This document shows positions 21,941-27,189 of a stretch of DNA of 60,133 nt, piece after piece. A model generated the notes under the pieces. It saw only the letters and a list, made by a program, of their open reading frames with translations. It was not told where the DNA came from and searched no databases. This DNA comes from an uncultured Oscillospiraceae bacterium. GTDB taxonomy: Bacteria; Bacillota; Clostridia; Oscillospirales; Oscillospiraceae. The stretch covers positions 1 through 60,133 of the forward strand of contig CALXDL010000066.1 in the NCBI GenBank assembly GCA_944387055.1, written 5' to 3'. The translations under genes were made by a program, and so were the position numbers. Every line of letters begins with the position of its first letter. The first letter of the stretch is position 1.

Positions 21941-24900
21941 TCAGTACTCCGCCACTCCGGTGTAGACCAGCTTGGCGTCGCCCGTGAGGGTGACGTTCTC
22001 ATCCGTATAGTTGACCACCAGGTCACCGCCGCGGACTTTCACCGTGATGTCCCGCCCCTTCTCGCAAAGGCCGTTCGCCACGGCGGCCACCACCGCCGCG
22101 CACGCGCCGGTCCCGCAGGCCAGGGTCTCACCGCTGCCCCGCTCCCAGACCCGCATCTTGATGGTGCTGGGATTCACCACGCGGATGAACTCCGTGTTGA
22201 TCCGCTGGGGGAAGTAGGGCGCATGTTCGAAGCGGGGGCCCAGGAACTCCATGTCCACCTGATCCACCCGGGGGCAGAACACCACACAGTGGGGATTGCC
22301 CATGTCTACGCAGGTGATCTCGAAGGGGCGTCCGCCGATCCGCACCGGATACCCCACCACCGTCTTTTCCGGGATGGCGAATTTGAGCGCAGCCGTGTCC
22401 AGCGTGGCATACCCCATGTCCACGCAGGCAGAGGTCACCTTGCCGTTGGTGGTATAGACCTTCACGGCTTTGACGCCCGTGCTGGTCTCGATGGTCATGG
22501 TCTCTTTCTTCACGATGCCCCCGTCATAGAGATACTTGGCCATGCACCGCAGGGCATTGCCGCCCATCTGGCTCTCGCTGCCGTCCGCATTGAACACCCG
22601 CATCTTGGCATCCGCCTTCTTGGAGCGCTGCATGAGGACGATGCCGTCGGCGCCGATGCCGTGATGGCGGTCGCAGAACGTGACGCACAAAGACTCCGGG
22701 CAGGTGATCGCATCGTCGAAGTCCTCCAAGAAGAGGAAGTCGTTGCCGCAGGTCTCCATCTTGGTGAAGGGCAGGACCCGCCGCTCGGTACGCAGGTGGC
22801 AGATGTCAATCAGCTCTGTGTTGGCCTGGGTATACCGGCTGGCCAAGATGTCTGTCAGCGCGTTCGCCGTATCCAGAGATGTCAGGCAAGGGATGCCCAG
22901 TTGGACGCAGCGGTGGTTCAGATGGATGAAGTCCCGGATATAGCTGGGTTCCGTGGACCCGGTGAGGATCACATAGTCGATCTTCCCCTCTTCCAGCATC
23001 CGGAAGACCCGGTTGTCCTTCCCCAGCTTGCCCACGACCTCCACATCGGTCCCAAGCTGCGAGATCTCATTTGCTGTGCCGTCAGTGGCGTAGAGCTTAT
23101 AGCCCATATCGTCCAGTTTCCGGGCGATGTTCACGATCTCCGGCTGGTCCCTGCGGTTGACGGAGATGAGGATCCCGCCCCGCTCCTCTTTCTCCACCTT
23201 GTACCCGGCGGAGACCAAGCCCTTGAACAGAGCTTCCTGCATGTTCTTTCCAAGGCCCAGGACCTCTCCGGTGGACTTCATCTCCGGCGACAGGGCGGCG
23301 TTGGCGTCGGTGATCTTCTCGAACGAGAACACCGGCACTTTCACCGCCACATACGGCGGCTGGCGATAGAGTCCCGTCCCGTATCCCAAGGACTTGAGCG
23401 GCTGGCCCACCATGACCCGTGTGGCCAGATCCACCATGGGCACGCCCGTCACCTTGGAGATATAGGGCACCGTGCGGCTGGCACGGGGGTTCACCTCGAT
23501 GACGTACAATTCGCCCTGATAGATGAGATACTGGATGTTGATGAGGCCCCGAGTCCCCAGGGACAGGGCCAGCTTCTCCGAGCAGTCGATGATGGTCTCC
23601 AGCATCTTGTCACCGATGGAAAAAGGCGGATAGACGGCGATGGAGTCGCCGGAGTGGACGCCGGTGCGCTCGATATGCTGCATGATACCGGGGATGAGGA
23701 CATCGGTCCCATCAGAGATGACGTCCACTTCCAGCTCCTTGCCCATGAGATACTGGTCCACCAGGACAGGGTTCTCGATCTTGCCGGAGAGGATGACTTC
23801 CATATAGGTGCGCACATCCTCATCGTTGTGGGCGATGACCATGTTCTGGCCGCCGATGACATAGCTGGGCCGCAGCAGCACCGGATAGCCCAGCTCGTGG
23901 GCCGCGTCCAGCGCCTCTTCCATCCCCAGCACGCCCCGGCCTTGGGGGCGCTTAATCGAAAAGCGCTCCAGCAGCTCGTCGAACCGCTCCCGGTCCTCAG
24001 CCATGTCGATGGACTCGGCACTGGTCCCCAAGATCTTCACCCCGTGGCTGTCCAGGAACTTCGTGAGCTTGATAGCCGTCTGTCCGCCGAAGGCCACCAC
24101 CACGCCCATGGGCTTCTCCACTTCGATGATGTGCATCACATCCTCCGGGCACAGCGGCTCGAAGTACAGGCGGTCAGCAGTGTCGTAGTCCGTGGAGACG
24201 GTCTCCGGGTTGTTGTTGACGATCACCACGTCATAACCCAGTTCCTTGAGGGTCCAAACGCAGTGGACGGAGGAGTAGTCGAATTCGATGCCCTGGCCGA
24301 TCCGGATGGGTCCGGAGCCGAGCACCATGATGACGGGCCGTCCGGACCGGGGGAAGGCCCGAGACTCACAGTAGCGGTCGAACGAGGAGTAGAAATAGGG
24401 GGTCTCTGCGTCGAACTCCGCGCCGCAGGTATCCACCATCTTATAGACGGCGGACAACGGCGGGCAGGGCAGCTCCGCCGCGCCGGCAAGCCGCAGGAGG
24501 GCACCGTCCGGATACCCCAGTCTCTTGCCGGTCTCATACCGCTCAGGCGTAAGACCGCCTGCAAGGTCCCGCTCGAACGCTGCCAGCTTGAGCAGCTTGG
24601 CCAGGAACCAACGGTCGATCTTCGTGATGGCATGAATCTCCCCGATGGACACACCGCTCTTGAGTGCCTCGAACACTGTGAAGAGGCGGTGGTCATCCAC
24701 CCGGGCCAAGCGCTCCCGGATAGGCGCCTGATCCTCCGGATCGGGCTTGCGGTCCAGGCAGTCCATATCGATCTCCGCGCCGCGGACCGCCTTCATGAGT
24801 GCCATCTCGAAGCTGGGCCCGATGGCCATGACCTCACCGGTGGCCTTCATCTGCGTGCCCAGATGGCGGCTGGCATCGGCGAATTTGTCGAAGGGCCACT

Positions 24901-25975
24901 TGGGCATCTTCACCACCACGTAGTCCAGTGTGGGCTCGAAGCAGGCGCAGGTCTTGCCGGTGATGTCGTTCTTGATCTCATCCAGGCGATAGCCCAGTGC
25001 GATCTTGGTGGTAATCTTGGCGATGGGGTATCCCGTGGCCTTGGAGGCCAGGGCAGAGGAGCGGCTGACCCGGGGATTCACCTCGATGACGGCGTATTGG
25101 AAGCTCTCCGGATCCAAAGCCAGCTGCACGTTGCACCCACCCACGATGCCGAGATGAGCGATGATATCCAAGGAGGCCTTGCGGAGCATCTGGAACTCCT
25201 TGTCCGCCAGTGTCTGGGTGGGCGCCACCACGATGGAGTCTCCCGTGTGGACCCCCACGGGGTCCAGGTTCTCCATGGAGCAGACGGCGATCACGTTCCC
25301 CACGCTGTCCCGCATGGTCTCGGACTCGATCTCCTGCCAGCCGAAGATAGCTTTCTCCACGCGGATCTGGCAGATGGGCGAGGCGTCCAGGCCCGTCTGC
25401 GCGATGATGCGCAGCTCGTCCGCGTCCTGTGCCGCACCGCCGCCGGCGCCGCCCAGCGTGAACGCAGGACGGACGATGACCGGATAGCCAATCCGCTCCG
25501 CCACCGCCAGCGCGCCCTCCACGGTCTCTGCGATGTCTGATGCGATGACTGGCTGTCCGATCTCCGCCATCGCCTCTTTGAACATCTCCCGGTCCTCGGC
25601 CCGGGAGATGGCGGCGGCGTCTGTCCCCAGCAGGCGCACGCCCTGCGCCTGGAGGAAGCCCTCTTTGTCCAGCTGCATGGCCAAGGTCAGGCCCGTCTGG
25701 CCGCCAAGGCCCGCCAGGATGGAATCCGGCTTCTCCTTGCAGATGATGCGCTTGATGGTCTCCACGGTCAGCGGCTCCAGATAAATCTCATCCGCCATGG
25801 CCTGATCGGTCATGATGGTGGCGGGGTTGGAGTTGCACAGCACCACCTCCACGCCGGCCTCCTTGAGCACCCGGCAGGCCTGGGCGCCGGCATAGTCGAA
25901 CTCCGCTGCCTGGCCGATGACGATGGGTCCGGAACCGATCACCAGCACTTTTTTGATCGATGTATCCAGCGGCAT
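21941..25975 (-). CDS. carB: carbamoyl-phosphate synthase large subunit fused to diaminopimelate epimerase
   Basis: One uninterrupted 1,344-residue reading frame joins two enzymes. Residues 1 to about 1,065 are CarB: two ATP-grasp halves (VLVIGSGPIVIGQAAEFDY near 10-28; VLGSGPIRIGQGIEFDYS in the second half) and the C-terminal regulatory MGS domain ending in PCLTSLDTANAL. Residues about 1,066-1,344 are DapF: LPFTKMETCGNDF at the junction, HHGIGADGIVLM, and GETLACGTGACA with catalytic Cys 1287. At the first catalytic position the sequence is NADGSESQMGGNALRC, so Gly 1138 replaces the usual Cys. CarB makes carbamoyl phosphate for pyrimidines and arginine; DapF makes meso-diaminopimelate for lysine and peptidoglycan. 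CarA's stop overlaps this start (TAATG). No internal ribosome site is seen at the junction. Confidence 0.93.
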   Translation of the reverse strand: MPLDTSIKKVLVIGSGPIVIGQAAEFDYAGAQACRVLKEAGVEVVLCNSNPATIMTDQAMADEIYLEPLTVETIKRIICKEKPDSILAGLGGQTGLTLAMQLDKEGFLQAQGVRLLGTDAAAISRAEDREMFKEAMAEIGQPVIASDIAETVEGALAVAERIGYPVIVRPAFTLGGAGGGAAQDADELRIIAQTGLDASPICQIRVEKAIFGWQEIESETMRDSVGNVIAVCSMENLDPVGVHTGDSIVVAPTQTLADKEFQMLRKASLDIIAHLGIVGGCNVQLALDPESFQYAVIEVNPRVSRSSALASKATGYPIAKITTKIALGYRLDEIKNDITGKTCACFEPTLDYVVVKMPKWPFDKFADASRHLGTQMKATGEVMAIGPSFEMALMKAVRGAEIDMDCLDRKPDPEDQAPIRERLARVDDHRLFTVFEALKSGVSIGEIHAITKIDRWFLAKLLKLAAFERDLAGGLTPERYETGKRLGYPDGALLRLAGAAELPCPPLSAVYKMVDTCGAEFDAETPYFYSSFDRYCESRAFPRSGRPVIMVLGSGPIRIGQGIEFDYSSVHCVWTLKELGYDVVIVNNNPETVSTDYDTADRLYFEPLCPEDVMHIIEVEKPMGVVVAFGGQTAIKLTKFLDSHGVKILGTSAESIDMAEDRERFDELLERFSIKRPQGRGVLGMEEALDAAHELGYPVLLRPSYVIGGQNMVIAHNDEDVRTYMEVILSGKIENPVLVDQYLMGKELEVDVISDGTDVLIPGIMQHIERTGVHSGDSIAVYPPFSIGDKMLETIIDCSEKLALSLGTRGLINIQYLIYQGELYVIEVNPRASRTVPYISKVTGVPMVDLATRVMVGQPLKSLGYGTGLYRQPPYVAVKVPVFSFEKITDANAALSPEMKSTGEVLGLGKNMQEALFKGLVSAGYKVEKEERGGILISVNRRDQPEIVNIARKLDDMGYKLYATDGTANEISQLGTDVEVVGKLGKDNRVFRMLEEGKIDYVILTGSTEPSYIRDFIHLNHRCVQLGIPCLTSLDTANALTDILASRYTQANTELIDICHLRTERRVLPFTKMETCGNDFLFLEDFDDAITCPESLCVTFCDRHHGIGADGIVLMQRSKKADAKMRVFNADGSESQMGGNALRCMAKYLYDGGIVKKETMTIETSTGVKAVKVYTTNGKVTSACVDMGYATLDTAALKFAIPEKTVVGYPVRIGGRPFEITCVDMGNPHCVVFCPRVDQVDMEFLGPRFEHAPYFPQRINTEFIRVVNPSTIKMRVWERGSGETLACGTGACAAVVAAVANGLCEKGRDITVKVRGGDLVVNYTDENVTLTGDAKLVYTGVAEY

Positions 25976-27039
25976 TACAGCTCGCCTCCTTCCATGAGAG
26001 CTACGAAGCGGTCGAAGAGGAACGAAGTATCCTTGGGTCCGGTGCAGGCCTCCGGGTGGAACTGGACCGTGAAGGCCCGCAGCGCCGGATAGTCGATGCC
26101 CTCGCAGGTCCCGTCATTGGCGTTGGCGAAGCGCACCTGCCCCTGCTGGACCGAGCCGGAGTCCACCGCATAGCCGTGGTTCTGGCTGGTGATATAGGTG
26201 CGCGTGCCCTGGAGGTCTCGGACCGGCTGGTTCACGCCCCGATGCCCATATTTGAGCTTATAGGTCTTCCCGCCCGTGGCCAGGGCCGTGAGCTGATGCC
26301 CCAGGCAGATGCCGAACATGGGCACCTTCCCCAGCAGCTTTTGGATCTGCTGGATCTGATAGAGGTCCTCTGCCGGATCTCCGGGTCCGTTGGAGAGCAT
26401 GACGCCATCCGACTCAGATGCTAAGATCTCCTCTGCACTGGTGGAGGCAGGCAGGACCGTCACCGCGCAGCCCCGCTTTTGGAGCTCCCGGACGATGTTG
26501 CGCTTGGCACCGTAATCGATGAGGCAGACTCGGGCCCGCTGCCGCCCCTCCGCCGGATAGAGCGTGGGCGCCTTGCAGGTAACAGCCTCCACTACGCCCG
26601 TGACGGCGTAGGTCTCCACCGCCGTCAGGTCCGCGGGGACCGTATTGCAGATGCAGGCGTTCATGACACCGTGTTCCCGGATGATGCGGGTGAGCTCCCG
26701 AGTATCCACGCCCCAGAGCCCCGGCACGCCCTGTTCTTTCAAGAAGGTATCCAGGTCGCAGTCCGTCCGGAAGTTGGAGGGCGCGTCGCACCATTCGCGC
26801 ACTACATACCCCTTGACGCAACAAGCCCCCTCAAAGTCTTCCCGGATGATCCCGTAGTTTCCAATGAGGGGGTACGTCTGTAATACGATCTGTCCTGCGT
26901 AGCTGGGGTCGGTCAGCGTTTCGATATAACCGCACATGCCTGTCGTGAACACCAATTCTCCGACCGCCGCGGCGTCGGCGCCGAACCGAAACCCCTCGAA
27001 CGCCCGGCCATCCTGGAGCACTAAATAGCCCTTTTTCAT
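25975..27039 (-). CDS. carA: carbamoyl-phosphate synthase small (glutaminase) subunit
   Basis: CarA hydrolyses glutamine and channels ammonia to CarB. The 354-residue protein has the N-terminal small-subunit domain (LVFTTGMCGYIETLTDPSYAGQ near 27-48) and a class I amidotransferase domain. The nucleophile Cys is in FGICLGHQLTALATGGKTYK, and the His-x-Glu pair is in QFHPEACTGP. The frame is open upstream, but the ATG at 27039 follows GAGGGAGGAAACC. Its stop and the carB start share a base, so the two subunits are translationally coupled. A promoter lies 55 bases upstream. Confidence 0.96.
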   Translation of the reverse strand: MKKGYLVLQDGRAFEGFRFGADAAAVGELVFTTGMCGYIETLTDPSYAGQIVLQTYPLIGNYGIIREDFEGACCVKGYVVREWCDAPSNFRTDCDLDTFLKEQGVPGLWGVDTRELTRIIREHGVMNACICNTVPADLTAVETYAVTGVVEAVTCKAPTLYPAEGRQRARVCLIDYGAKRNIVRELQKRGCAVTVLPASTSAEEILASESDGVMLSNGPGDPAEDLYQIQQIQKLLGKVPMFGICLGHQLTALATGGKTYKLKYGHRGVNQPVRDLQGTRTYITSQNHGYAVDSGSVQQGQVRFANANDGTCEGIDYPALRAFTVQFHPEACTGPKDTSFLFDRFVALMEGGEL

Positions 27040-27093
27040 GGTTTCCTCCCTCTCGAGACCGCAGTCCATCGATCTTGCACTCATTTCGATGTC

Positions 27094-27122
27094 ATTATGA
27101 TGGTTTTTCTGATGACAGTCAA
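27094..27122 (-). promoter_or_regulatory. promoter of carA-carB/dapF
   Basis: On the minus strand TTGACT (27117-27122) and CATAAT (27094-27099) are 17 bases apart. I see no PyrR-type attenuator between it and carA. Confidence 0.75.
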
Positions 27123-27189
27123 TCGTTTCCCCCGCACACAGCCATAAAGTTTTTTCCAGAGATCGGAGATGTTTTTTGTGCATTTCCTA

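Follow-up and report, generated by a model that had tools for sequence, protein, structure and literature searches.

In a stretch of 60,133 nucleotides from an uncultured Oscillospiraceae bacterium (GenBank assembly GCA_944387055.1, contig CALXDL010000066.1; the whole stretch is called the window here), one gene, carB::dapF, encodes both the large subunit of carbamoyl-phosphate synthase (CPSase), CarB, and diaminopimelate epimerase, DapF. The fusion extends over many families of the phylum, and in the window's lineage its DapF domain has lost the first of two catalytic cysteines and, judged by its residues, is very probably no longer an epimerase.

The gene is a single open reading frame of 1344 amino acids with profile matches to both enzymes and no stop between them, as a sequence-only reading of this DNA had proposed. 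CarB (TIGR01369 of NCBIfam) was matched with 1376.5 bits (cut-off 1027) at residues 4–1042, extended to 1047 by NF003671, and Pfam found CPSase_L_D1, D2, D3 and MGS in this part, the match spanning both synthetase halves. The match to DapF (TIGR00652, NCBIfam) was full-length, with 270.7 bits (curated cut-off 114.65). Like CarB of TIGR01369, the window protein holds a complete CarB with carA directly upstream, the carA stop overlapping the carB start by one base; unlike it, it has about 275 additional residues right after the MGS domain. In-frame start codons between residues 1031 and 1085 are TTG 1044, ATG 1073 (within the conserved DapF N-terminus) and TTG 1083. By eye, no Shine-Dalgarno-like stretch was found in the 20 bases ahead of each of these three codons, which agrees with the earlier statement that the junction lacks a stop and an internal ribosome binding site; an internal start at the junction was rejected for want of such a signal. 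A PF01678 search placed both matches on the contig inside the fused gene, so that, as had also been claimed, the window holds no other dapF. The fused gene was the sole CarB above cut-off found in the window genome (assembly listed as 85% complete).

Relatives were taken as the 80 best of 246 loci from a scan of genome contigs, and all 80 carry the fused frame (L050 is truncated by a contig end inside the DapF part, L073 at the CarB start). Their record names include Oscillibacter, Dysosmobacter, Gemmiger, Fournierella, Avoscillospira and other Clostridia, and one is a complete genome, Oscillibacter valericigenes Sjm18-20 (AP012044.1). The claim of a conserved in-frame fusion joining two pathways was thereby confirmed. 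Since the fused frame is kept in these relatives, the fusion is not a sequencing artefact, a source which the earlier reading had considered for the missing stop. Unfused carB and dapF are adjacent in related genomes, three of them with a single in-frame stop between the genes, and an assembly or sequencing error could in principle have erased such a stop; against the same frame in 80 relatives including a complete genome, and the grouping of the fused rows into a single CarB clade, the probability of this is practically negligible. Among genomes drawn by rank, the fusion was found in at least 65 of 197 of the order (52 among the matches listed and 13 via CarB), in 56 of 392 of the class and in 19 of 398 of the phylum, the class and phylum figures being our own counts of rows matching the fused region across the junction; a mapping of this spread had been recommended. 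FastTree placed all 70 fused rows of an 86-row CarB tree in one clade, with one state change and local support of 100; this tree included 16 of 20 fetched unfused regions (G006, G151, G179 and G022 were left out). Because the fused rows form one CarB clade, a single origin of the fusion fits.

DapF catalysis uses two cysteines. In the window domain the first (Cys1) is replaced by Gly1138, and the second (Cys2) is kept as Cys1287; the "complete DapF domain" of the earlier reading is complete in length, not in its active site. Among the 80 relatives, the Cys1 site is Ala in 65, Gly in 11, Ser in 3 and Cys in 1 (L082), and the Cys2 site is Cys in all 80. Standalone DapFs had both cysteines in 70 of 70 distinct sequences read (46 + 24), most of them high-ranking in score lists or companions of a fused gene. 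A separate dapF, for which a search had been suggested, is present in the window genome: it stands alone on contig C5 (L005:2754-3608) and has both catalytic cysteines. The complete Oscillibacter valericigenes genome likewise combines a fused gene lacking Cys1 with a standalone dapF. Matches to dipicolinate synthase subunits B and A lie about 1.5 kb from the standalone dapF of the window genome (L005:2754-6531), that to subunit A being below its curated cut-off; dipicolinate synthase draws on the same pathway as lysine. For DapF of Corynebacterium glutamicum, an almost complete loss of activity is reported for the mutants C83A and C221A (PMC5296763), and Ala, the commonest natural Cys1 state in the relatives, is the same change as C83A. 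Because Cys1 is lost, the C83A mutant is almost inactive and a separate two-cysteine dapF is present, the fused domain of the window lineage appears, with a high degree of probability, to be inactive as an epimerase. Compared with DapF (TIGR00652, PF01678), it is homologous over the full length and keeps the diaminopimelate-contact residues and Cys2; it differs in the Gly at Cys1 (Ala in most relatives), in being joined to CarB and in not being the sole DapF of its genome. Given the Gly at Cys1 and the separate dapF, the proposal of a diaminopimelate-supplying DapF half that links the stoichiometry of two pathways is not upheld for the window genome. A second intact dapF, combined with close relatives that lack the fusion, had been named as evidence against the fusion; the second dapF exists, but the fusion is not lost in any of the 80 best relatives.

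A Cys1-less domain that does not epimerise would leave its genome in need of another route to meso-diaminopimelate, either a standalone DapF or meso-diaminopimelate dehydrogenase (Ddh), which bypasses the DapF step. Fused domains with both cysteines are termed "live" and those with one or both absent "dead". Sample 1 consisted of 52 fused genomes of the order among the best 150 matches listed, a range above that of low-scoring domains. Sample 2, drawn later as a test of the pattern in sample 1, consisted of 59 genomes of the class and phylum; nine of 69 fused genomes had been left out before residue reading, as congeners (G466, G541, G373, G451, G376, G894, G875, G815) or as cut by a contig end (G206), and G233 was dropped, its two genes not being fused. 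Sample 3 comprised 20 genomes reached from named loci, chosen among the 80 relative loci; samples 1 and 2 may share species with sample 3. DapF and Ddh matches far under the cut-off (e.g., G366 with 46.6 bits, G480 with 19.6 bits, G122 with 22.6 bits) were not counted, and genomes in pieces can hide genes.

Among the 38 dead rows of sample 1, a standalone DapF was present in 27, Ddh only in 11 and neither in 0; the 14 live rows gave 2, 7 and 5, respectively. The corresponding numbers in sample 2 were 24, 6 and 2 for 32 dead rows and 6, 14 and 7 for 27 live rows. Sample 3 held 19 dead rows, 18 with another route and one (L071) with none, and one live row, which has Ddh. Pooled over the three samples, another route was found with 86 dead copies and was absent from 3, against 30 and 12 for live copies (Fisher p 7e-5, with related rows). 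For a standalone DapF versus none, the fractions in samples 1 and 2 were 51/70 dead and 8/41 live (p 5e-8, with related rows), and sample 2 alone gave p 7e-5. Both cysteines were present in all 33 that were read of the 51 standalone DapFs from dead genomes. Completeness is given as 91–99% for the 12 live genomes that have neither route; in such lineages, where the two-cysteine fused domain is the only DapF detected and no Ddh was found, the earlier idea of a coupling of two pathways may well hold. Thirteen further fused genomes, found via CarB and kept outside the pooled counts, had 11 dead and 2 live copies, with a second DapF match in 9 of the 11 dead ones (the two matches of G153 may represent two parts of a single domain); G023 and G076, also among these 11, were judged by DapF matches alone. 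The L048 genome (G955: C56, C89) has two fused carB::dapF copies, either paralogues or due to a mixed bin; its second DapF match is the other fused copy, and Ddh is present.

Several results limit how far these contrasts speak for a cysteine loss permitted by a second route. Dead copies without another route occur in G524 (88% complete, with two congeners that have a standalone DapF), in G503 (99% complete, the domain being very degenerate) and in the L071 genome (completeness unlisted). In sample 2 alone, another route versus none gave p 0.066. A second route is not sufficient to inactivate the fused domain, since most live copies have one too (29 of 41 rows in samples 1 and 2: 8 with a standalone DapF, 21 with Ddh only). 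Only three tree-controlled pairs were usable, taken from well-supported branches of a 111-row tree of samples 1 and 2 in which many branches are weak; for any other route these averaged 1.0 in the expected direction, 0.0 in the opposite one and 2.0 without difference, and for a standalone DapF alone 1.6, 0.2 and 1.2. The minimum number of changes between live and dead was 12 on the 111-row tree and 5 on the CarB tree (70 fused rows), a count which gives no direction.

The residues of C. glutamicum DapF which contact diaminopimelate are given as N15, N74, G84, N85, N159, N194, E212, R213, G222 and T223 (PMC5296763), and the window domain keeps 10 of these 10. Sixty rows of samples 1 and 2 lack Cys1 and retain Cys2; among these, N74, N159, E212, G222 and T223 (C. 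glutamicum numbering) are each present in 60, N194 in 59, R213, G84 and N85 each in 58, and N15 in 49 (10 Asp, 1 Ser). Mean entropy there was 0.16 at the ten pocket positions and 0.43 at 86 other positions, namely those conserved in live copies (one-sided p 0.037); Cys2, invariant by the choice of rows, was left out of the test (p 0.02 when counted), and live copies differ in the same direction. The kept pocket suggests that a ligand may still matter in many lineages. Median ratios of nonsynonymous to synonymous substitutions (dN/dS), determined over 49 Oscillibacter-group rows (902 of 1176 pairs in range), were lowest for CarB residues 1–900 (0.13), followed by the MGS domain (0.17) and the dead DapF domain (0.21). 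The latter is under purifying selection, slightly looser than CarB; a catalytic residue lost from a domain still under such selection is one of two marks of a pseudo-enzyme, the other being a non-catalytic role, which for the tail is hypothetical. In L333 (G153) and L255 (G503), decay of the domain is advanced, with Cys2 replaced by Ser and the pocket motifs altered, and the full fused length persists.

DapF relatives with changed function are known in PddB, a 2,4-diaminobutyrate racemase, and in the histidine racemases HisR and CntK. PddB is described as working with two cysteines and as replacing the distal-carboxylate residues Asn64, Asn157, Asn190 and Arg209 (PMC8225329); HisR likewise works with two cysteines (PMC11602996). 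The fused tail, unlike PddB, keeps the distal-carboxylate residues and loses a cysteine, and their retention in the 60 rows points to a diaminopimelate-like ligand there. A respecialised racemase was rejected as the leading explanation, because the residues replaced in PddB stay in most dead rows.

The simplest course of events to account for these data is the following. The ancestor would have been a working bifunctional CarB-DapF enzyme, formed once. In genomes with a second DapF or with Ddh, the epimerase half would have become dispensable, and a catalytic cysteine would then have been lost, more than once; the direction from live to dead is the one which we infer. The meso-diaminopimelate would now be made by the separate DapF in the window genome, or via Ddh in other genomes, and the pseudo-enzyme tail would have been retained with either a structural or a ligand-sensing role in CPSase. 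In the latter case, the kept pocket might bind diaminopimelate or a close analogue and adjust CPSase. The MGS domain is the regulatory part of CPSase, and because the tail follows it directly, a control of CPSase by diaminopimelate can be argued. That the dead DapF behind the allosteric MGS domain senses diaminopimelate and sets the flow of carbamoyl phosphate to arginine and pyrimidines is a tentative proposal, and on balance we consider it somewhat unlikely.

A purely structural role, in which folding or assembly of CarB depends on the tail without any ligand, so that the tail cannot be deleted, shares the inactive epimerase with the foregoing and differs only in why the tail stays. It is a serious possibility, although it falls short of being probable. 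The domain persists where both cysteines are lost (8 of 111 rows) and where the pocket is partly lost: 10 of 70 dead rows lack Cys2 (8 of these lack both cysteines) without having lost the domain, among them G033 and G503 with decayed pockets, and G365, with Cys2 kept, retains the domain with an altered pocket motif. When all 70 dead rows are taken together, the pocket is not significantly less variable than other positions (entropy 0.30 versus 0.53, p 0.21), and the tail evolves under a higher dN/dS than CarB. The rows with a lost Cys2 or an altered pocket and the entropy comparison over all dead rows speak against sensing; what counts against a purely structural tail is the lower variation of the pocket in the Cys2-keeping rows, a difference that live copies share. 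Of the 68 rows in samples 1 and 2 that lack Cys1, 60 have Cys2, which could also be read as a sign of one-cysteine chemistry, that is, another reaction such as elimination on a diaminopimelate-like substrate, or slow epimerisation with another proton donor. One-cysteine mutants of glutamate racemase still eliminate, and some racemases use Cys/Thr, according to a review (PMC8142540). Such chemistry is distinctly improbable here, since the Cys1 site is mostly Ala or Gly, which are incapable of acting as an acid, 8 rows without either cysteine still hold the domain, and C83A of C. glutamicum is almost inactive (PMC5296763). That the fused domain is a working diaminopimelate epimerase in the window genome, coupling two pathways, appears more doubtful still and very improbable: the domain is full-length, its other pocket residues are kept, and elsewhere a two-cysteine fused copy is the sole DapF found, but the Gly at Cys1 and the separate two-cysteine dapF argue against it.

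Gene neighbourhoods were viewed in 20 regions fetched from the 111 genomes of samples 1 and 2 (13 live, 7 dead). Live copies are often near dapL, and some dead ones stand in arginine operons. A gene for DapL (LL-diaminopimelate aminotransferase) was found at most three genes downstream in 7 of 13 live regions (G110, G006, G332, G308, G467, G555, G565; confirmed by NCBIfam in G565, G110 and G308, by motif in the others) and in none of 7 dead regions. An ornithine carbamoyltransferase motif was found beside the fused gene in none of the 13 live regions, and argF is just upstream in 3 of 7 dead ones (G034 and G160 by NCBIfam, G131 by motif), following argJ-argB-argD in G034 (confirmed) and look-alikes of these genes in G131. 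Among 79 dead relative loci, an ornithine carbamoyltransferase motif was upstream in 10 and an ArgJ motif in 5, the upstream sequence being too short to judge in 12 of the 80 relative loci. L048 does not follow this division, being dead and yet followed by dapL. Near several live copies, purF or pyrG was present.

Unfused clusters carry the same genes side by side. Ten regions (L191–L200) have an unfused carB with dapF directly downstream, then a dapL-like gene, and several have a purF-like gene upstream; the dapF placement was viewed directly in eight and taken from match places in two. In L205–L206, from the same order, the arrangement is reversed, dapF-dapL-carA-carB, the genes being named by motif and position. 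These clusters resemble the fusion in the adjacency of the genes and differ in that the genes are separate; their dapF has two cysteines where it was read. The ten carBs of L191–L200 form a clade separate and distant from the fused carBs, and because of this carAB and dapF must have become neighbours more than once. An origin of the fusion from the carA-carB-dapF-dapL cluster of L191–L200 has no direct support, those carBs being distant; adjacency of the genes may have preceded fusion in another lineage. In G233:C57, G089:C7 (L336) and G101:C8 (L337), one in-frame stop lies between carB and dapF and the fused-region profile aligns across it, one step short of a second fusion. In L309 (G308), the carB frame is in two overlapping pieces before an intact MGS-DapF part, due to a frameshift or an assembly error.

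The features in the window are compiled in the table. The start of carA is likely near 27039, because homology starts near residue 51 of the open frame; 5' of carA, a carbamate kinase gene (opposite strand) and lepA are present.

Table. Position of the fused gene, its parts and carA in the window
Feature	Position	Strand	Remark
Fused carB::dapF gene	21941..25975	-	single open frame, 1344 aa
CarB part, residues 1-1047	22835..25975	-	two ATP-grasp halves, oligomerisation domain, MGS domain
Junction, residues 1048-1069	22769..22834	-	no stop; no ribosome-binding-like signal by eye
DapF domain, residues 1070-1342	21950..22768	-	profile match
Codon 1138 = Gly, first catalytic cysteine site (Cys83 in C. 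glutamicum DapF)	22562..22564	-	
Codon 1287 = second catalytic cysteine, retained	22115..22117	-	
carA (CPSase small subunit) open frame	25975..27183	-	441.5 bits

A CarB-DapF fusion was not named in the titles and abstract openings covered by a search of the open-access literature, a range that leaves aside subscription papers and automatic database names. UniProt presumably gives such proteins automatic names of the kind "multifunctional fusion protein". The DapF2 described in PMC9026213 is a pyridoxal phosphate-dependent replacement and different from the fused domain. The present data reveal that two biosynthetic enzymes unrelated to each other are joined in a fusion of wide distribution. 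Many of the bacteria carrying it are Clostridia from gut and rumen, and a single clade holds both working and apparently dead versions of the fused domain. An annotation that relies on homology would count for such genomes a second DapF, which is probably non-functional. If the tail should sense diaminopimelate, it would provide an allosteric link from the cell wall to the supply of nucleotides and arginine, by binding and not by catalysis; the idea could be tested in hosts available in culture, among them Oscillibacter valericigenes Sjm18-20.

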